Source: a virus. Taken from it: 22,108 nt of DNA. The stretch is taken from the IMG/VR virus record IMGVR_UViG_3300046006_001824, positions 1 to 22,108 of that record. One strand, given 5' to 3'. Position 1 is the first letter of the stretch. Each line of letters opens with the position of its first letter. Positions 9,485 to 17,687 of the stretch are shown piece by piece. The translations under genes were made by a program, and so were the position numbers. A model generated the notes under the pieces. The model searched no databases. It worked only from the letters and a program-made list of their open reading frames with translations, and had not been told where the DNA came from.

Positions 9485-9536
9485 CTGTCGACCTTTTTAA
9501 TAATATGTGAGAAAGAAACTTCAATTAGGCTGATAT

Positions 9537-9971
9537 TTACCTTGGTCTCACTATGTCGACTAAGTTTTCTAGAAAAAATGTGTCTGGAATATCCTGTGAT
9601 TTTATGCTTTGCCATCTGTCGTAATTAAGTACCATGTTATCGTCTATATATACTAGATTGTACAGTTTAGTTCGAGTTTCATCAACCATAGTCCGCACTT
9701 CAATCTTACTATTGGCAAATTTTTCCGTTAATTTTAATGTCTGAGCCATCATTAAGGCTATGGTAAAATCATCATACCTATTTTCAACAATGATATCCCA
9801 CGGCGTAGGCCAGCTTTGGTGATTGTATCTATCTATATGATGGTTATAGGACACCATGGGTGCGTGACCCCAAAATTCGCTTAGAATGGTAAGAGGGTCA
9901 GAGGACTTATCAAGATCTTCTCGAAGTGCTTTCCACTCGGTCAATCTTTCTTCTAAAGATTTTTGAAACAT
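9537..9971 (-). CDS. Small phage protein downstream of the tail spike, unknown function
   Basis: The 144-aa protein has a helical N-terminus (EERLTEWKALREDLDK), then a Trp/His/Tyr-rich central segment with HQSWPTPWDIIVENRYDD (about 51-68). A helical stretch ALMMAQTLKLTEKF and beta-like strands follow (KLYNLVYIDDNMVLNYDRW). The central W-P-T-P-W-D segment is one I associate with conserved proteins of aquatic T4-like phages, but I know no proven role. Its start codon overlaps the tail-spike stop (TAATG), so it is translated with the spike and may be a chaperone, connector or baseplate-side partner; that is inference. Confidence 0.7.
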   Translation of the reverse strand: MFQKSLEERLTEWKALREDLDKSSDPLTILSEFWGHAPMVSYNHHIDRYNHQSWPTPWDIIVENRYDDFTIALMMAQTLKLTEKFANSKIEVRTMVDETRTKLYNLVYIDDNMVLNYDRWQSIKSQDIPDTFFLENLVDIVRPR

Positions 9972-11650
9972 TAATAATACTGATTAATTTGATAAGTTAA
10001 TGTACCAGATGCTGTGTTACTGGTATATCTAATTGCAATTGCATTTGTGGTTAAATTGTAAGTAGCTTCGAATACAATGCCAGTATCGTCATTACCAAAA
10101 TAATTGTAATTGTCTGTTACTGGAATTAATAGTATATTAGGATCTATTGTGCTTGTCAATGTATTACTAGAGCAGATCAATGTCAAGTCACCCCATCTTG
10201 AAATTCCAGCGGTTGTGATCTGATATTGCATTTTTACATTAGTAGTATCACCCGTATGAGCGACTTTTGCCACTGTCCCGGCAGCAGTCCCTGAACTAAT
10301 AGAAATAGTAGTAACTCTGTTGTCAACTAATGATACGTGTCCATATACTGGTAGAACGAATGCTATATCAGTGGATGTAGCATTTACTTCGGAGACTCTT
10401 GAAAACGTATCATAGTCGGATACATTGCCTGATGTTCCAAAGAACAATACATTAGTAACTTGCCCCCCAATGTCTCCAAGGCCAGGAGCTGCATACGAAC
10501 TATTGTTCCCTACATCAGTATAAATGTTTTCTGATAAGATATGGTTAGTATATTCTGTAGATGTTCCTGCAACTAATACTGCTTCATTAGCAATAACGTT
10601 AAAGATATTTCTAGTGATTCTAGATTTGGTTGGACCAATGTCTGCCTGCGGATCGTTAAAATAAACAATACCTCTAGCTAAGTTTTCAAATCTATTACTG
10701 TCAATTACAGTGCCTTCAGTATCGTAATCTGATTTAATACCATAATGTAGTGTATCAAATACACAGTTAGTGATTCGTAAGTTTTTACTAGTAATCCCAG
10801 CCTGACCGCGAATGTCAATACCTGTATTACCTACATTTGATGTTGCATAAGGAGATACACCTTGAAACTTAACATCGTCGATAATAGAATCAATGCTGGC
10901 ATCTGCTCTTAGTAACGGCAATGTTGCTGACATCGCTGCATCTCCACTGTACTGCAGAGTCATTCCAGAAATAGTGATATTTCTCGGACTTGTTCCGCTT
11001 GACATCGATCCAATTACTTCCGGTAGTCCTGGGTCGCTGTCTAGGCTGACAAATTGGAACAGTGCTTCGGCACCACTGTCCATAGAAATAATTGTTTTAT
11101 CTTTACCTTCACCTATAATAGATGCATATGCCGGCAAAAAGATAGTGGACGTTGTGCTATATTCGCCTGCAGGAATTTTCAGTGCAGTTCTAGCTCTTGC
11201 AGAAGCTTTATCACTGTTTAAGAACAATTCATCTATGGCTCGTTGTAGTGTAGTGGTAAAATCGAAATTGCCATCTAGATAGTTAACTTCGGTTACAAAA
11301 TCAAATAAACTTACACTGTCGTCTAACTTTTGTTTAACAGTTCTATTGAGAAATGTATTACCCGGACCTGTATAGATATCTATACCTCTGTGTCCAGAAA
11401 AATAATAACTGCTGGTAGTGATACTAGCCCCAAATATATTCGGAAGATCTAATACTGTTAAAATTCTGGTATTTGTGGTTAACGTGGCACCATCTTCAGT
11501 CCTGTTACCGATGAACAATTCCGGTGCAGTAGTTTCGGCAGCAGTTCCTGATATTGCCCAGCCCAATTCACCTGTGTCAAGTTGTGGCATGCCATCAGTT
11601 CTAGCATCCCCTCTTCTTACTTGTATGCGAGCAATTTCTACAACAGCCAT
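9971..11650 (-). CDS. Tail spike/fibre protein with beta-helix (pectate-lyase-like) domain
   Basis: The 559-aa protein begins with EIARIQVRRGDARTDGMPQL and LDTGELGWAI (residues 5-32), the attachment-domain pattern seen at the N-terminus of many phage fibres. Residues about 110-200 (TLQRAIDELF, ALKIPAGEYSTTSTIFLP, ASIIGEGKDKTII) are the classic start of a right-handed parallel beta-helix of the Pectate_lyase_3/spike type. The helix continues to about 400 with repeated N/D-rich turns (NITISGMTL, NLRITNCVF, RITRNIFNV). The last 150 residues are Ser/Thr-rich strands, probably a trimerising receptor-binding end. It would bind or cut a surface polysaccharide of the host. Active-site residues cannot be assigned. 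The start overlaps a hairpin and late box that may control expression. Confidence 0.85.
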   Translation of the reverse strand: MAVVEIARIQVRRGDARTDGMPQLDTGELGWAISGTAAETTAPELFIGNRTEDGATLTTNTRILTVLDLPNIFGASITTSSYYFSGHRGIDIYTGPGNTFLNRTVKQKLDDSVSLFDFVTEVNYLDGNFDFTTTLQRAIDELFLNSDKASARARTALKIPAGEYSTTSTIFLPAYASIIGEGKDKTIISMDSGAEALFQFVSLDSDPGLPEVIGSMSSGTSPRNITISGMTLQYSGDAAMSATLPLLRADASIDSIIDDVKFQGVSPYATSNVGNTGIDIRGQAGITSKNLRITNCVFDTLHYGIKSDYDTEGTVIDSNRFENLARGIVYFNDPQADIGPTKSRITRNIFNVIANEAVLVAGTSTEYTNHILSENIYTDVGNNSSYAAPGLGDIGGQVTNVLFFGTSGNVSDYDTFSRVSEVNATSTDIAFVLPVYGHVSLVDNRVTTISISSGTAAGTVAKVAHTGDTTNVKMQYQITTAGISRWGDLTLICSSNTLTSTIDPNILLIPVTDNYNYFGNDDTGIVFEATYNLTTNAIAIRYTSNTASGTLTYQINQYY

Positions 11651-11651
11651 A

Positions 11652-11679
11652 AAATATCCCCTATTATGGGATATTTATC
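11652..11679 (-). promoter_or_regulatory. Late promoter embedded in a ribosome-site-sequestering hairpin
   Basis: On the minus strand GATAAATA (11679-11672) is one mismatch from the T4 late box TATAAATA and lies 21 nt before the tail-spike ATG. The same DNA forms a perfect 9-bp inverted repeat: AAATATCCC (11676-11668) and GGGATATTT (11660-11652), with a 7-nt loop. The likely Shine-Dalgarno AGGGG is in the loop and 3' arm. A transcript starting at the late promoter (near 11666) lacks the 5' arm, so the site is free; read-through RNA would have it paired. The T4 lysozyme gene e is regulated this way. Confidence 0.6.
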
Positions 11680-11685
11680 GTTATT

Positions 11686-11704
11686 TGAGATAGTTGGTAT
11701 CTCA
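11686..11704. repeat. 7-bp inverted repeat in the tail spike/homing endonuclease gap
   Basis: TGAGATA (11686-11692) and TATCTCA (11698-11704) are perfect inverted copies around a 5-nt spacer. No T-run follows on either strand, so it is not a standard terminator. It lies between two divergent late-box octamers and could be a protein-binding site or a processing hairpin. Confidence 0.35.
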
Positions 11705-11724
11705 CCGAGTTATGATCCATAATA

Positions 11725-11732
11725 GATAAATA
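11725..11732 (+). promoter_or_regulatory. Late-box-like octamer directly before the homing endonuclease
   Basis: GATAAATA, one mismatch from TATAAATA, ends 4 nt before the ATG at 11737, and no Shine-Dalgarno sequence is present. If it is used, transcription would start at or within a base of the start codon, giving a leaderless mRNA. It could also be chance in AT-rich DNA. Confidence 0.35.
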
Positions 11733-11736
11733 CTGT

Positions 11737-12282
11737 ATGAACAACTCATATGTATATGCTTATCTTCGAGAGGACTTAACACCTTACTACATTGGTAAAG
11801 GTGTCGGTAAACGTTATAAGGATACCCATACTGTAGCAGTTCCTCCACTTGATAGAATTGAGTTTATCCAAAAACAGTTGACAGATGCTGAAGCAATAGC
11901 ATTAGAAATTGAACTTATTGCCAAATACGGCCGTAAGGATTTAGGCACAGGAATCTTACGCAACTTAACTGATGGAGGCGAAGGACTGTTAAATCCTAGT
12001 CCTAGTATTCGTAAAAAGTTATCTGATGTTAAACTAGGAAAACTTCCGAACAACTACGGCAAAAAATACACTACAGGCCCATCTAAACTAAAGAGCGTAT
12101 CCAAGCAAGGCAAAAATAATCCCCAGTACGGCAAAGAGCGTACTGAGGATGAACGTGCTAGAATAGCAAAGGGTATTAAGGAAGGGTGGAGTCGCCCTGT
12201 GCTAACATGTCCTCATTGTGGCAAGCAAGGCAAGGTAGGAATGACTCGTTGGCATTTTACTAATTGTAAATTAGCCAATTAA
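11737..12282 (+). CDS. Free-standing GIY-YIG homing endonuclease
   Basis: The 181-aa protein starts with the GIY-YIG core: Y5-V-Y7 on the first strand, Y17-Y-I-G-K-G with R26 (PYYIGKGVGKR), a catalytic Glu in the IALEIELIAKYGR helix (E57 or E59), and N76 in LRNLTDGGEG. The middle (about 85-150) has NUMOD3-like DNA-binding repeats, seen in GKNNPQYGKERTEDERARIA. The end is a predicted zinc finger, C158-x2-C161-x11-H173-x3-C177 (LTCPHCGKQG, RWHFTNCK). Such enzymes cut a related phage genome to spread by recombination. It is on the opposite strand to its neighbours, and its last 12 nt overlap the end of the convergent exonuclease gene. Confidence 0.9.
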   Translation: MNNSYVYAYLREDLTPYYIGKGVGKRYKDTHTVAVPPLDRIEFIQKQLTDAEAIALEIELIAKYGRKDLGTGILRNLTDGGEGLLNPSPSIRKKLSDVKLGKLPNNYGKKYTTGPSKLKSVSKQGKNNPQYGKERTEDERARIAKGIKEGWSRPVLTCPHCGKQGKVGMTRWHFTNCKLAN

Positions 12283-12993
12283 TTTGTAGTATTGTTCTAC
12301 TTTGTTTAGCCACATATCCTGATACTTGTTAAAGTCTTTTGGTAATAGATCAAATTGTTGATATACCTCACCTCCTACCTTAAGTGTGTCGTCACCTCGA
12401 CTACACATAAAAATAACACCACGTTTAATATCTGTGCCATACACTTCGTTATGTGCTAGAATGTAGGCCATTAGTTGCAGAAAGTAATCTTCAACCCATT
12501 CTGCTTTTTTAGGCTTGTTTGTTTGTTTATGATCGCAAACTGCCGGTTGATTGTCATACACCCCAACTAGGTCAGTAGTACCGCTGTACAAGCCAGGAAA
12601 GTATAAACTCTGCTCCATTGCCCATACTTCGTTTACTTTGCTAAGTCCTTCGTCGATAATTCGATCTGCCATTGCATTGGCTTTGACCTGTACTAGATTA
12701 TTGCCGGGCATACGCTCTAGCCCTGCTAGATATCTTTCAATATTGGCATGCATTGCAGTACCTACGCCTGCGGCTTCTTTTGTAATAGCTGCGGCATTGG
12801 CCTCGCCCACTCGTTTGCGCCATTCGATCAAATGGGTTTGATCTTTAGTTGCGCCCAGAATAGTTGTTACACTGGGAGTTTTTTCTCCGTCAGGAGTGAG
12901 ATAAACACGTTTACGAGTTATCGGATCGTTTACTTGCTGACAGGATTTATATTGGAATCGTTCGACGAACGGAGGAGGAGTTTGAATCTGCAT
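12271..12993 (-). CDS. PD-(D/E)XK exonuclease (Cas4/RecB/MGME1-like)
   Basis: The 240-aa protein shows the PD-(D/E)XK exonuclease pattern. It has PSVTTILGATKD near residue 40, H82 in GTAMHANIERYL, E127 in MEQSLY, D141 in SGTTDLVGVYD, the catalytic D154-H-K156 in AVCDHKQTNK, and Q173-L-M-A-Y177 in YFLQLMAYILAHNE. These match the RecB/Cas4-type exonucleases and mitochondrial MGME1. In a phage it would process DNA ends during replication or recombination. There is no four-cysteine cluster, so it is not a true Fe-S Cas4. No Shine-Dalgarno sequence precedes the ATG; instead a consensus promoter would start RNA at the ATG itself. The 3' end overlaps the convergent homing endonuclease by 12 nt. Confidence 0.85.
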   Translation of the reverse strand: MQIQTPPPFVERFQYKSCQQVNDPITRKRVYLTPDGEKTPSVTTILGATKDQTHLIEWRKRVGEANAAAITKEAAGVGTAMHANIERYLAGLERMPGNNLVQVKANAMADRIIDEGLSKVNEVWAMEQSLYFPGLYSGTTDLVGVYDNQPAVCDHKQTNKPKKAEWVEDYFLQLMAYILAHNEVYGTDIKRGVIFMCSRGDDTLKVGGEVYQQFDLLPKDFNKYQDMWLNKVEQYYKLIG

Positions 12994-12999
12994 ACTATA

Positions 13000-13028
13000 A
13001 TTATAGCACTACAGATTCAATATGTCAA
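13000..13028 (-). promoter_or_regulatory. Perfect consensus sigma70 promoter, probably leaderless
   Basis: On the minus strand TTGACA (13028-13023) and TATAAT (13005-13000) are separated by exactly 17 nt, all twelve bases matching consensus. Counting 7 nt from the end of the -10 puts +1 on the A of the exonuclease ATG at 12993. The upstream gene's TGA stop lies inside the -35. This points to strong early transcription by unmodified host RNA polymerase. Confidence 0.8.
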
Positions 13029-13378
13029 ATATCCGGAGATAATTTCTGTGCGCCCGAGCGGGCCATTTGATCAACGCCAGGACCTTTTGGTACTTCCATA
13101 GGATCCTGCTTGGTGTTTTCTGGTTCTTCATCTGTGCCTAGAATCAAACCATCTTCATTAAAATTTCTAATTAAGGCATGCAGGCTAGGATTTTCATCAA
13201 AGATTCTCCTAAACCCTGCATAGTCAATATCACCGTAGCCGAAACCTCTTAACATGTTGCTTAATGCAGGCCATGTTAACGTTTGGGAGGCTTGCTTTGC
13301 ATCACTTCTCCCAATTCGGTTTCTCAATAAAGTTTCTAGATCATCTACAAACCTATTGTCGGCTTCAAATAATCTCAT
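13025..13378 (-). CDS. Phage virion-associated candidate, unknown function
   Basis: The 117-aa protein opens with MRLFEADNRFVDDLETLL, then has a helical core (LETLLRNRIGRSD, LTWPALSNMLRGFGYGDIDY, FRRIFDENPSLHALIRNFNEDG) and ends in a flexible Pro/Gly-rich tail of about 35 residues. I remember similar helical proteins in aquatic T4-like phages close to structural genes, without a proven role. The ATG overlaps the upstream stop (ATGA), so it is coupled to the large Lys/Glu-rich gene. MRLFE could be a very short prohead-protease site (L-F-E followed by A). Its stop codon lies inside the promoter of the exonuclease gene. Confidence 0.65.
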   Translation of the reverse strand: MRLFEADNRFVDDLETLLRNRIGRSDAKQASQTLTWPALSNMLRGFGYGDIDYAGFRRIFDENPSLHALIRNFNEDGLILGTDEEPENTKQDPMEVPKGPGVDQMARSGAQKLSPDI

Positions 13379-14676
13379 CTTGACAACTTGCTCATGATAC
13401 TATGGCTTTCGGCAATTTTACGAATAAATCTGCTTTCGCGCACTTCACGGCCTGCTGTTTCTGCGCCGCCGGCAGCAGCGTCACTTGCACCAAATTCGTC
13501 TTCTGGAGGATTCATAGAATCTGGTTCTACGTCCATTGGTACTTCGCCGTCCATTGGTGGCTCGCCCATTCCTGGTTCTGCACCCATTTGTGGAACTTCA
13601 GTAGCTTCACCTGCCAATACGGCAACTGCGTGACTAATTGCTTCACGTTGCTGTGTTAACACTTCTAACGTTGCAGTCAATGCTGGACTAACTGTTTGCT
13701 TAAATGTTTCTGCTTCTTGTTCGCCAAAATCTGAACGAATTGCATCTGCTAATTCGACAATGGCTTTAGTTTGATATTGACCAACACGTTGCATCCATGT
13801 AGTAAAATCATTAACCATATCGCTAGCAGCAGTGATTGCTTTAGCTTTGCCTTCTTCATCTTCTTTAATTAAGAAACGTAGGCTTTCGTTGACTAAGCGA
13901 ACGTGTAGTTTGAAAACTTCTTCGCTTACTTTTTTCTTAGAAGATTTCTTATCGCTGTCAGGGGCTTTAGGAGCATCCTGTCCACCATAGTTCTTACCAG
14001 CTGTGTGCTTTAGACCTGTAGCAGTTTTAGTAATTTCGCCGCCAGTGCTAGACTTTTTCTTCTCGCCTTGCTTCATACCACTTGTGCCGGCAGCAGCTTT
14101 CCTGGCATCATCTACTGTTGGAAATGCTTCTTTAACTTTCTTGCCACCTTTGGCATCTTTGCCTAATCGGCCTGCAATTACGTCGCCTCTAGTAACTTTA
14201 TCATATGGCTTGGCATTGTTTGCTAAGTTGCCATCGCCTTTTGTAGCTTCGTTTGTTTTCTTCATAGTTGTTTCCTCGATGCCTTCTTCGGCTTTGGTTG
14301 TTTTTTTCTTTGGATGCTTGATGTGTGCCCAAGCAATTGATTCTGCATCATCTTTAGACTTGCCCTTCTTCATCATACTTTTTGTAATATGTGCAGCTTG
14401 ACGATCTACCTTAGCGCCTTCACCTAGCATCTCTTTGATCTTTGTATTCAAAAGCTCAAGCATATGCTTGTTTTTTTGATAATCTTCGTTAGAAAGTAAT
14501 TCGTTAAATTTAGCACCAGTTTCAGTTTGATGAACTTTGGTTCTTAATATATTGCGATAGTTTTCTAACTCTTCGCGAGTGTACTTGTTAAAGTTAACTT
14601 TAGAACCGAACTTTTTGAACATGCTTTCGTTCAATGTGTCTGCGGTTACTGTAGTTGTAAAATCTGTTGTCTTCAT
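13375..14676 (-). CDS. Lys/Glu-rich phage protein, internal or scaffold-like candidate
   Basis: This 433-aa protein has a helical N-terminal domain (YTREELENYRNILRTKVHQ, about 33-51, to KIKEMLGE near 88) and an HITKSMMKKGKSKDDAESIAWAHIKHP segment in two parts around 100-125. Then come a long Lys/Gly/Thr-rich disordered stretch, a helical region (about 255-360) and an acidic Met/Pro/Gly-rich end. An earlier TTG start at 14688 is possible, but the ATG at 14676 has GGA 9 nt upstream. Charge pattern, disorder and several hydrophobic-x-Glu sites (TLNE, MLGE) resemble prohead core or internal proteins, but I do not recognise a named family. A late-box-like octamer lies 26 nt upstream. Confidence 0.7.
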   Translation of the reverse strand: MKTTDFTTTVTADTLNESMFKKFGSKVNFNKYTREELENYRNILRTKVHQTETGAKFNELLSNEDYQKNKHMLELLNTKIKEMLGEGAKVDRQAAHITKSMMKKGKSKDDAESIAWAHIKHPKKKTTKAEEGIEETTMKKTNEATKGDGNLANNAKPYDKVTRGDVIAGRLGKDAKGGKKVKEAFPTVDDARKAAAGTSGMKQGEKKKSSTGGEITKTATGLKHTAGKNYGGQDAPKAPDSDKKSSKKKVSEEVFKLHVRLVNESLRFLIKEDEEGKAKAITAASDMVNDFTTWMQRVGQYQTKAIVELADAIRSDFGEQEAETFKQTVSPALTATLEVLTQQREAISHAVAVLAGEATEVPQMGAEPGMGEPPMDGEVPMDVEPDSMNPPEDEFGASDAAAGGAETAGREVRESRFIRKIAESHSIMSKLSR

Positions 14677-14702
14677 GGGTAGTTCCAAAGAATGTAATGT
14701 AG

Positions 14703-14710
14703 TATTTAGT
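14703..14710 (-). promoter_or_regulatory. Late-box-like promoter ACTAAATA
   Basis: ACTAAATA on the minus strand is two mismatches from TATAAATA and lies 26 nt before the ATG at 14676. The longer string CACTAAATACTACAT around it is repeated exactly before the metallopeptidase gene (19560-19575), which supports a real promoter class. It includes the TAA stop of the upstream gene. Confidence 0.45.
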
Positions 14711-15176
14711 GGAGATTACGAAGTTTCTCAAAACTATACATGATGCTGGCCTTAGATGTTTCTACCCTAATTTTAGCAATGTTTAATTTAGTGTACAAAA
14801 AATCTGCCCTATCTAAATTCTTCTTTTTTAGGCTTTGAACAGCATGTTGTCTTAACAGGTCTACTTCAAAAGACATATACCCATATTCTTGATCTAACTG
14901 ATAAAATCGCTGTTCCGTTAACTTGCCCAGTGCTAATGAATTAGCAATTAGTGCAGCAGTTTGTGGAAGATTAATTTTATCAATTACTGTATCACCATTT
15001 CTATTTTTAATAGAATAAAATCCATTTGTATTTTTTACAATAGAATAATTCTCTATCGAAACACTGCCATCGATATTCTTAGTTGGAATAGCAATGCCTC
15101 GTTGTTTAAGATCCTTCTTAACAATATCGGCAACTAACTTAAATTTTTTAAGAACTTGATCGGAGGTAGAAGACAT
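14706..15176 (-). CDS. Phage protein of unknown function, helical C-terminus
   Basis: The 156-aa protein begins with a helical, basic segment (DQVLKKFKLVADIVKKDLKQ), then a beta-rich part with short strands (SIENYSIVKNTNGFYSIKN). A long helical domain closes it (AALIANSLALGKLTEQRF, LLRQHAVQSLKKKNLDRAD, FLYTKLNIAKIRVETSK). I recall similar proteins as conserved unknowns in aquatic T4-like phages. No catalytic motif, signal or membrane segment is seen. AAGG lies 6 nt before the ATG. The start lies 29 nt inside the 3' end of the upstream gene, and the stop overlaps the late-box of the next gene. Confidence 0.7.
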   Translation of the reverse strand: MSSTSDQVLKKFKLVADIVKKDLKQRGIAIPTKNIDGSVSIENYSIVKNTNGFYSIKNRNGDTVIDKINLPQTAALIANSLALGKLTEQRFYQLDQEYGYMSFEVDLLRQHAVQSLKKKNLDRADFLYTKLNIAKIRVETSKASIMYSFEKLRNLH

Positions 15177-15369
15177 TTTTAACCTTATTAATTTGGGCGG
15201 CGTCTTTACTTATTTCGTATACACCCTTGCGTACAAGGTTTTGAGCTACCCAACCTGCGTGTTCATCTAGACTATTTTTTCCAACAGTATCTCCAAAATG
15301 ATTAACAAATGCTTGTTCTTCATTAGTTAGGTACACAGCGATGGATTCTACAATGTCGTTAATTTTCAT
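15148..15369 (-). CDS. 73-aa phage protein with a capsid-targeting-like N-terminus
   Basis: The protein starts MKINDIVESIAVYL. Its first eight residues end in I-V-E followed by Ser, like a T4 prohead-protease site at the end of a capsid-targeting sequence. The rest is short and helical (NEEQAFVNHFGDTVGKN, EHAGWVAQNLVRKGVYEI) with no enzyme motif. The ATG overlaps the stop of the upstream gene (ATGA), and its own end overlaps the next gene by 29 nt. It may be a small internal or head-associated protein; this rests on the N-terminus and the neighbours only. Confidence 0.65.
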   Translation of the reverse strand: MKINDIVESIAVYLTNEEQAFVNHFGDTVGKNSLDEHAGWVAQNLVRKGVYEISKDAAQINKVKNVFYLRSSS

Positions 15370-16142
15370 TTTATGTCTTTAGGATCTACAGTAATCGGAT
15401 AACCTAGAGTTTTAGTTGTGTCTAACTTAACTCCCTTGCCGCCGGGATTCGGCATTACTTTGACAGTTCCCCTGCCAGTGATGGGATCAGCAATAGTTTT
15501 GCCCGGCTGCATATAGGTTACGGGATTAGAGCCCGGAGTTATAGCAGGATCTAATGAACGTGCAGCAGCGGTCATTCCTAATTTACTCAACCCTGACTGA
15601 GCAAGATTTGCTGCAATCCCTTGATCAGGATCCATGTTCATGCCTTTCTTAAAACCTTGTGCAAGTCCACCTAAGAACCCGGGAGGTTTAGCTTGAGTAG
15701 CAGCAGGCGCACCTAGTGTAGGCGCACTTCTCATTATTCCTGGAGAAAGTTTTTGTGCAGCCGCAACCTGTGCAGCAGTTTGTGCTTTTTGCACAGTATT
15801 AACTGACTGACCAGGAACTTTTACATTGACATCAGTTGCCGCAGTTTTATCTTTTGCTGCCAATGGACTTTTGTCTGTTTGTTGTGCTTGTTGAGCAGTT
15901 TGTTGTTGTGTGCCAACTGGCTTAATAACAGGTTTAGGAACTCCAGGTGCCGCATATTGACCTATCATCTTATCAAGTGAAATATCAGTTGCAGGCTTAG
16001 AGTTATCTCGAAAAGGTAAATTTGCTAGACTTGACGTCTTTACTGCTTGATCTTTCTGAGCCCTTAACTGTGCTCTTAGCTGATCTTGGCTAAGGACAGG
16101 TGTGGGTAATCCCACTTCAAAAATGAGCTCACTAATTTTCAT
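15366..16142 (-). CDS. Disordered Ala/Gln/Pro-rich protein with a capsid-targeting-like N-terminus
   Basis: The 258-aa protein starts MKISELIFEVGLPTP. The nine residues before Val end in I-F-E, resembling the T4 internal-protein and Alt leaders cut by prohead protease gp21. The remainder is low complexity: Gln/Ala/Thr/Lys-rich around 75-130 (QQQTAQQAQQ), a Gly/Pro region, one possibly folded stretch (GFLGGLAQGFKKGMNMDPDQ, about 160-179), and a Pro/Gly/Thr-rich C-terminus. It has no cysteines and no enzyme motif. Such composition suits a protein packed in the head or a flexible linker. ATGA overlaps join it to both neighbours. Confidence 0.65.
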   Translation of the reverse strand: MKISELIFEVGLPTPVLSQDQLRAQLRAQKDQAVKTSSLANLPFRDNSKPATDISLDKMIGQYAAPGVPKPVIKPVGTQQQTAQQAQQTDKSPLAAKDKTAATDVNVKVPGQSVNTVQKAQTAAQVAAAQKLSPGIMRSAPTLGAPAATQAKPPGFLGGLAQGFKKGMNMDPDQGIAANLAQSGLSKLGMTAAARSLDPAITPGSNPVTYMQPGKTIADPITGRGTVKVMPNPGGKGVKLDTTKTLGYPITVDPKDIK

Positions 16143-16378
16143 CCTGGGAATTTAGTTAATATAATGATAAGAGTGCTTATCACACCGGCTACTACAGTAC
16201 CGGCAGTACCAATGAGAACTTTAATCATACTCATTTGACCTTTTTCAACTAGGTCGGCCAATGTTGAAACTTTTGTTTCAATATTACTTAATCTAGTCTC
16301 TAGCTGCTTATATCGCTCTGCACATAATTCAACATGCGCTTCGAGATTTTCTTTTTCAATTTCAGTTGTCTTAGACAT
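16139..16378 (-). CDS. Small coiled-coil protein with C-terminal membrane helix (XhlA/holin-like shape)
   Basis: From the chosen ATG at 16378 the protein is 79 aa. A charged coiled coil covers about 5-48 (KENLEAHVELCAERYKQLE, TRLSNIETKVSTLADLV), followed by one strong membrane helix at about 51-75 (MIKVLIGTAGTVVAGVIS, TLIIILT). This N-coil/C-membrane order is seen in XhlA-type haemolysin/holin accessory proteins of phages and in other small membrane anchors. An earlier in-frame ATG at 16402 exists, but AGGA sits 9 nt before 16378. It overlaps the upstream gene by 8 nt and the next gene by 4 nt. A lysis role is possible but not shown. Confidence 0.65.
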   Translation of the reverse strand: MSKTTEIEKENLEAHVELCAERYKQLETRLSNIETKVSTLADLVEKGQMSMIKVLIGTAGTVVAGVISTLIIILTKFPG

Positions 16379-16811
16379 TGGTGTTTCCTGGTTCGATATC
16401 AATTAAAGAAATTAATGTGTTGCACCAACCATTATCTCTTAATTCGAAGACCGCTTTAGATGTATTTATGGTCTCTTCTAACTTTTCAATTACGGGCACT
16501 TGATGTAGATCATTAATTAATAATCCCAACTTGCCAGTTTCATCTTCGTAACTTGTTGACCTATCGGTAGTAAATCTAAATGTCCATACATTGTGTTTAC
16601 CTTTGTGTTTTGTTCCAAATCCCATTGACTTAACATCAATTGATTCTACTTGAGGATTTTGGTCGTACTCAATAATGGCCCTGAGTCCAATGCATTGCAA
16701 TAGAGTAACCCAATTTCTGTATTGACTGTGTTCTTTGTCTAATCCTATTTTATGTCTCGAAATTCCCGAGTTGGTTATATCTATTAGAGTTTTAATTTCA
16801 ATGATTTCCAT
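16371..16811 (-). CDS. Phage protein of unknown function (DITNSGISRHK type)
   Basis: The 146-aa protein has a conserved-looking opening (IKTLIDITNSGISRHKIG), then a helix (WVTLLQCIGLRAII) and several strands (ESIDVKSMGFGTKHKG, VWTFRFTTDRS). A C-terminal alpha/beta part reads VIEKLEETINTSKAVFEL. I remember proteins with this ITN-G-SRHK opening as common unknowns in aquatic T4-like phages. No enzyme motif is evident. GTAGG lies before the ATG, and a CATAAATA late-box 18 nt upstream suggests late expression as the first gene of the unit running down to 13025. Confidence 0.7.
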   Translation of the reverse strand: MEIIEIKTLIDITNSGISRHKIGLDKEHSQYRNWVTLLQCIGLRAIIEYDQNPQVESIDVKSMGFGTKHKGKHNVWTFRFTTDRSTSYEDETGKLGLLINDLHQVPVIEKLEETINTSKAVFELRDNGWCNTLISLIDIEPGNTNV

Positions 16812-16828
16812 AAGTACCTACTTTATGA

Positions 16829-16836
16829 TATTTATG
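16829..16836 (-). promoter_or_regulatory. Late promoter CATAAATA
   Basis: CATAAATA on the minus strand is one mismatch from TATAAATA, with 17 nt between box and ATG at 16811. It lies immediately after the terminator of the preceding gene, so a fresh start of transcription is needed exactly here, which strengthens the call. Confidence 0.6.
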
Positions 16837-16839
16837 GTC

Positions 16840-16867
16840 AAAAAAAAGCCCCTGCGTAAGCAAGGGC
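16840..16867 (-). terminator. Rho-independent terminator after the gene at 16891-17301
   Basis: On the minus strand GCCCTTGC (16867-16860), loop TTAC and GCAGGGGC (16855-16848) form an 8-bp stem with one mismatch, followed by eight T (16847-16840). It starts 23 nt after the TAA of the 136-aa gene and would end a short single-gene transcript. Confidence 0.8.
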
Positions 16868-16890
16868 GTTTTAATGCGTAACTTAAAAAA

Positions 16891-17301
16891 TTAAGCGTTA
16901 GCAAACATTGGGAAGCCGGCTTTTACAACTACTGTAGCACTGCTCAAATCAACTGAGTTAACTGTACCAAGGGCAATAACTTCGTCTTCTAAGTGAACTG
17001 CTAAAGCTTCGCTATTTGTACCGTCATAAGTGTCGTTACCATACTCGCCTTCAACTAATACGTCAAACATACGGCCTGCACCAGTACCGTTAGTTCTTAG
17101 TGCGCTTACACCAACGACTGTTACTCTACGTGCTAGAGCTGTTAGAATAGCTTGATATGCGCCAGCTGGGCCCATGTTAGCTGTTGCTAAGTTAGTTGCT
17201 GCAACAATGTCAACTGTAAAACAGTTTAGAGTTGCGCCGCTGAATGTACGACCGCGTGTTGCGTCGATTACTGGATTGATTTTTGTGATTCCACCTGACA
17301 T
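16891..17301 (-). CDS. Small, probably abundant virion protein, unknown function
   Basis: The 136-aa protein (MSGGITKINPVIDATRG) is Ala/Val/Thr/Gly-rich with alternating strands, resembling a small beta-rich coat or decoration protein. It has no charged clusters or enzyme motif. Recognisable segments are GRTFSGATLNCFTVDIVA, LARRVTVVGVSAL and EGEYGNDTYDGTNSEAL. The single-gene unit is well marked: a late-box and 5' hairpin before it, AGGAG 7 nt before the ATG, and a hairpin terminator after it, which suggests high late expression. I recall very similar proteins in many aquatic phages as unknowns. A capsid or tail accessory role is inference. Confidence 0.72.
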   Translation of the reverse strand: MSGGITKINPVIDATRGRTFSGATLNCFTVDIVAATNLATANMGPAGAYQAILTALARRVTVVGVSALRTNGTGAGRMFDVLVEGEYGNDTYDGTNSEALAVHLEDEVIALGTVNSVDLSSATVVVKAGFPMFANA

Positions 17302-17356
17302 AATATTCTCCTATTTTGTGTCATACCCCTTTGGGGCTATTGTACAATTATTTAGC
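17302..17356 (-). promoter_or_regulatory. Late promoter and hairpin leader of the 136-aa gene
   Basis: On the minus strand GCTAAATA (17356-17349) is a late-box variant, overlapping nothing else. After it come a perfect 10-bp palindrome ATTGTACAAT (17348-17339) and a hairpin CCCC/GGGG with loop AAA (17336-17326). The leader ends with AGGAG before the ATG at 17301. A hairpin close to the RNA 5' end would protect the message. The layout matches the leaders at 17783-17842 and 18724-18792. Confidence 0.55.
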
Positions 17357-17363
17357 CAGATTG

Positions 17364-17387
17364 AAAAAAAATACCCAATATGGGTAT
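17364..17387 (-). terminator. Rho-independent terminator after the 98-aa gene
   Basis: On the minus strand ATACCC (17387-17382), a short loop and GGGTAT (17376-17371) form a 6-bp stem followed by eight T (17371-17364). It begins within 6 nt of the TGA of the gene at 17391-17687 and separates it from the late promoter of the next gene. Confidence 0.8.
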
Positions 17388-17390
17388 AAA

Positions 17391-17687
17391 TCAATCTTCT
17401 TTGAGATCACCTTCTACAATCTTAAGACCTTTAACAGTTTCTTTATTATCGCGAAGTTTACGTATGCTACGAGTGAATTTAGCGGGATCAGCGGCTTTTA
17501 TACTGTTAATAAAACGTCTTTCGAGTTCGTATGCAGTTTCCGGATCGAAATTTTCTTTTATAAGATCTAAAAGGTTAATGGCGCTATTGATCACATGTGT
17601 GGCCCTAGCTTCTACAATTAGTTCTCCATCGCGCTTAACGGCAATGTCATTCAATTCTTCTAATAGGCTTTTAGTCTTACGTTGCAC
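17391..17687 (-). CDS. Small helical phage protein of unknown function, GTG start
   Basis: The 98-aa protein is almost wholly helical and charged (RKTKSLLEELNDIAVKRD, ATHVINSAINLLDLIKENF, AYELERRFINSIKAADP). I remember close relatives as conserved unknowns in many aquatic T4-like phages. It has no cysteine and no enzyme motif. The start is GTG at 17687 with AAGGA 9 nt upstream; no ATG is available near the helix start. A late-box ends 18 nt before the start codon, so the leader would be only about 13 nt, with the ribosome site at its very 5' end. A terminator follows the stop, making a single-gene unit. Confidence 0.7.
   Translation of the reverse strand: MQRKTKSLLEELNDIAVKRDGELIVEARATHVINSAINLLDLIKENFDPETAYELERRFINSIKAADPAKFTRSIRKLRDNKETVKGLKIVEGDLKED

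Follow-up and report, generated by a model that had tools for sequence, protein, structure and literature searches.

The tail-spike-like gene of the analysed viral DNA (22,108 nucleotides, hereafter the window) is preceded by a conserved hairpin covering its ribosome site, and with good confidence the best explanation for this hairpin is a switch of the T4 gene e kind that acts in cis on the timing of translation. A long RNA starting at the sigma-70 promoter of the upstream exonuclease gene would hold both arms, fold, and hide the ribosome site of the spike. The late polymerase, with a gp55-type sigma factor, would start at the box GATAAATA with its +1 at about 11666 and make a late RNA that lacks the whole 5′ arm, in which AGGGG would be free and the spike translated. 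Such a switch had been proposed in the first-pass annotation, and this reading was largely right: the arms covary across about 95 junctions, most of which have the predicted late start past the 5′ arm. Further support comes from the exonuclease promoter, from T4 controls on the same metric and from a gp55-like sigma factor in two relatives.

The spike gene (9971-11650, minus strand) encodes a predicted protein of 559 amino acids resembling a pectate-lyase-like beta-helix (Pfam PF12708, 26.9 bits against a cut-off of 27). Transcription of this minus-strand gene runs towards lower coordinates. The gene upstream, also on the minus strand, encodes a PD-(D/E)XK exonuclease (12271-12993) and is preceded by a perfect sigma-70 promoter, TTGACA-17-TATAAT (13000-13028, minus), which is conserved in relatives. 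An antisense homing endonuclease gene of the GIY-YIG/NUMOD3 type (11737-12282, plus) is inserted between the exonuclease and the spike. Searches of cultured phages returned neither a near DNA match nor a match to the whole spike, and the whole-spike search of IMG/VR gave none; in IMG/VR the exonuclease has hundreds of relatives, and more than a hundred were found for the spike N-terminus. Xanthomonas phage XaC1 was rejected as a counterpart, as it carries the exonuclease, but the genes that follow are annotated as hypothetical and not as a spike.

On the minus strand, the spike leader reads GATAAATA-TCCCA-TAATAGGGGATATTTT-ATG. The 5′ arm AAATATCCC (11668-11676, minus), upstream of the predicted late start, and the 3′ arm GGGATATTT (11652-11660, minus) pair perfectly over 9 bp, 11676-11668 with 11660-11652, and enclose a 7-nt loop. 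The Shine-Dalgarno-like AGGGG (11662-11658, minus) is located 7 nt 5′ of the ATG, in the loop and in the 3′ arm, which contains most of it. Both the full complementarity of the arms and this placement of the ribosome site agree with what had been described at first pass. When the longer RNA is folded, the ribosome site of this late gene is paired, as in gene e. Folded in isolation, the 30-nt element has a free energy of −9.4 kcal/mol, equalled by 0 of 200 shuffles (z = −2.97), and random 5-mers placed after the box matched its stability in 30 of 5000 trials. In a context of 61-71 nt, the z-score is only about −1.8. Therefore, the window sequence taken singly is modest evidence for the hairpin, and it is conservation that settles it. 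An Rfam scan of 9500-17500 found no family above the gathering score.

In most of the fetched loci, NATAAATA lies no more than a few bases behind the exonuclease gene, in many cases overlapping the stop codon of that gene, and is succeeded by the hairpin, the Shine-Dalgarno sequence and a spike homologue beginning MAVxEIAKIQVRRG. The arrangement was found in over 80 related sequences, and box, hairpin and ribosome site precede the spike in most of the 95 distinct exonuclease-spike junctions from IMG/VR. Covariation was assessed by partner-swap tests, scoring how well the segment absent from late RNA (the box plus 5 nt) pairs with the remaining leader; a MAFFT alignment misplaced the loop gaps and was left unused. 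Among 19 classes set by the 5 nt that follow the box, a grouping that limits the effect of relatedness and from which the hairpin-less group was excluded after looking, segments paired better with their own leaders than with swapped ones. The result stands in the repeat with all 95 distinct junctions and no exclusion, where the mean was −6.63 kcal/mol for own and −4.95 kcal/mol for swapped partners and 0 of 20,000 permutations were as good as the real pairing, although this figure is not an exact probability, the sequences being related. Own arms thus pair better than swapped ones and therefore co-vary, and the pairing has been maintained in evolution. In some clades, the arms were completely rewritten while the stem was retained, as in CTCTAT/ATAGAG (L059), CTAGAAA/TTTCTAG (L060) and ATCTAAT/ATTAGAT (L199), with the Shine-Dalgarno sequence still covered or looped out inside the stem. 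Both Shine-Dalgarno guanines pair with the part predicted to be untranscribed from the late promoter in 82 of the 110 junctions of the hairpin group. The hairpin is weak or absent in about 7% of the exonuclease-adjacent junctions; L021, L180 and L202 have none though they lie directly behind the exonuclease.

The T4-type late promoter box GATAAATA (11679-11672, minus) shares five bases with the 5′ arm, an overlap already pointed out in the first-pass annotation. In T4, the late box spans positions −13 to −6 relative to the start. The same spacing here predicts a +1 near 11666, which is also where the late start had been placed before, and therefore all nine bases of the 5′ arm precede it and should be absent from late RNA. 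Judged by sequence, the predicted start falls after the 5′ arm in most junctions, so that late RNA would lack this arm as in gene e. A gp55-type late sigma factor is encoded by the two largest relatives, G001 and G002, while no match was found in four further contigs, possibly partial; models of the gp45 clamp matched none of the relatives, but no control genome either. T4 late promoters have been reviewed elsewhere (PMC2988020).

When 169 late-box gene starts of six related contigs were ranked by the cost of opening the Shine-Dalgarno sequence in the long minus the late RNA, the top was dominated by spikes and by the homologue of a second gene, 16371-16811. Most spikes ranked at or near the top and most late genes had values of 0-2 kcal/mol. 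The low-scoring spikes were those of G006 (1.2, with a short hairpin) and G002 (−0.6, with no hairpin), and in the homologues of the second gene the hairpin is less consistent than at the spike. On the same metric, the positive controls T4 e, 49 and I-TevII scored 10.4, 8.1 and 11.1 kcal/mol, respectively, and the window scored 6.5.

The likely source of the long RNA is the exonuclease promoter. Across 123 distinct loci, a sigma-70-like promoter before the exonuclease ATG scores at least 10 out of 12 in 78%, a level that 1.2% of shuffles attain, and it is perfect in 25 loci, among them the window (13028-13000, minus). With a near-perfect conserved promoter immediately in front of the exonuclease, early RNA should be made. 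The distance from the −10 element to the ATG is 7 nt in 80 of the 123 loci and 6-9 nt in 117; with 7 nt, the early exonuclease mRNA should therefore be leaderless. Genome-wide, the distribution of this distance has a minor additional peak at 5-7 nt (20 of 191). In the window, the 590-nt antisense homing endonuclease insertion, which contains a terminator-like stem (12150-12119, minus), lies between the exonuclease and the spike, and early read-through may be weak in this very phage because the RNA must cross it.

The silenced RNA could instead stem mainly from structural genes upstream, as late read-through, with spike translation tied to its own late promoter, so that the hairpin would govern amount and not timing. 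Structural genes with late boxes do lie upstream on the same strand, and a second late gene, 16371-16811, follows a terminator and another late gene; it has a late box, and some of its homologues have a hairpin as well. The early RNA expected from the exonuclease promoter speaks against this possibility, which we consider rather doubtful as a full account. The two roles can coexist, and timing may not be the only one, since late read-through RNA would be silenced as well.

The other readings fare worse. An intrinsic terminator for exonuclease transcription would fit the hairpin's place directly after the exonuclease stop codon in most relatives, some of which have a short T run behind it, but relatives do not conserve the T run (GGGGATATTTCC, GGATATCTTACT, AGAGGATACTACC) and in a terminator scan the stem is picked up on the opposite strand alone; this reading was rejected as very unlikely. 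The inverted repeat could also act as DNA, for example as an operator of the I-TevI type, which overlaps the late promoter. The repeat does overlap the promoter, a homing endonuclease gene lies next door, and operators at late promoters are known targets of T4 homing endonucleases (PMC2988022). Protein binding should hold the sequence of an operator constant, however, and in relatives the arms vary widely while pairing is retained, including by G-U pairs; the hairpin is also present where there is no homing endonuclease, and an operator was rejected as very improbable. Chance complementarity between an A/T-rich box and an A/T-rich leader, for which one may cite that the box gives AAATA, that the leader often ends in TATTT and that a stability of at least −5 kcal/mol is reached by about 25% of composition-matched random 5-mers, is effectively refuted by the 78% of real junctions that do so and by the partner-swap permutations, which exclude independent arms.

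Homing endonucleases provide natural variants of the junction. The hairpin is kept where the endonuclease between exonuclease and spike is antisense (the window, L069, L076, L215 and L281). It is missing where a sense GIY-YIG endonuclease ends in GKRVWYDK-stop or similar (L077, L218 and L262) and where an apparent remnant of a sense endonuclease is found (L040 and L047). The last codons of these genes and remnants, e.g., TGG TAC GAT AAA TAG, provide a new GATAAATA. In all five (in L077 at 2340-2372), the codons for W, Y/F, D, K and stop encode the late box of the spike. T4 homing endonuclease genes are known to contain promoters that serve the genes behind them (PMC2988022). The hairpin is therefore not essential, given these phages and the junctions in which it is weak or lacking.

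The gene e switch, a textbook example, has been described mostly in T4 and in phages closely related to it. As in gene e, the late box at the spike lies in or before the 5′ arm, the Shine-Dalgarno sequence lies in the 3′ arm and late RNA would lack the 5′ arm. Unlike gene e, the gene guarded is a tail spike and not a lysis enzyme, sequence and neighbours are unrelated, and in place of two late boxes there is one, which in relatives frequently overlaps the preceding gene's stop codon. In T4, early read-through RNA of gene e is silenced about 100-fold (PMC3014915). Hairpins at T4 soc, 49, I-TevI/II/III and segB and at Aeh1 mobE follow the same logic in different genes, being found at late genes that lie in early or middle transcripts (PMC2988022, PMC3014915). 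At the spike junction, regulation is not directed at the homing endonuclease, whose insertion in the sense direction is accompanied by loss of the hairpin. Membership of the spike hairpin in the class of T4 e, soc, 49 and I-TevI is well supported; this new member stands out by the spike as the guarded gene and by the wide conservation. Covariation at the spike in about 90 diverse environmental sequences means that the design evolves and persists far from T4, and the series of hairpins kept, rewritten or lost after homing endonuclease insertion offers a natural system for asking why a phage avoids early spike synthesis. On balance, we lean towards a broader picture in which a large uncultured T4-like clade holds a receptor-binding-type spike under a conserved early-off/late-on RNA switch tied to a leaderless early exonuclease mRNA, while sense homing endonucleases invade the junction and replace the switch by a late box in their own C-terminal codons.

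Some further features of late genes were observed. Directly 5′ of the late box of gene 16371-16811 lies a poly-T terminator-like stem (16811-16870, minus), which is kept in relatives, and part of the homologues of this gene have a hairpin covering the Shine-Dalgarno sequence. Genes starting MAGIxxVHG or MTFGIxRVHG (L030, 28-110, and similar leaders) carry a G/C-rich hairpin between the late box and the Shine-Dalgarno sequence, leaving the latter uncovered. In 35 of the 169 late-box genes (contigs G001-G008), the box lies 4-5 nt 5′ of the ATG, and their late mRNAs are apparently leaderless. Genes with such a short distance include the GIY-YIG gene of the window (11725-11739, plus) and its equivalents in L215 and L281, and at 1309 of the window (minus) another late box lies 4-5 nt before an ATG.
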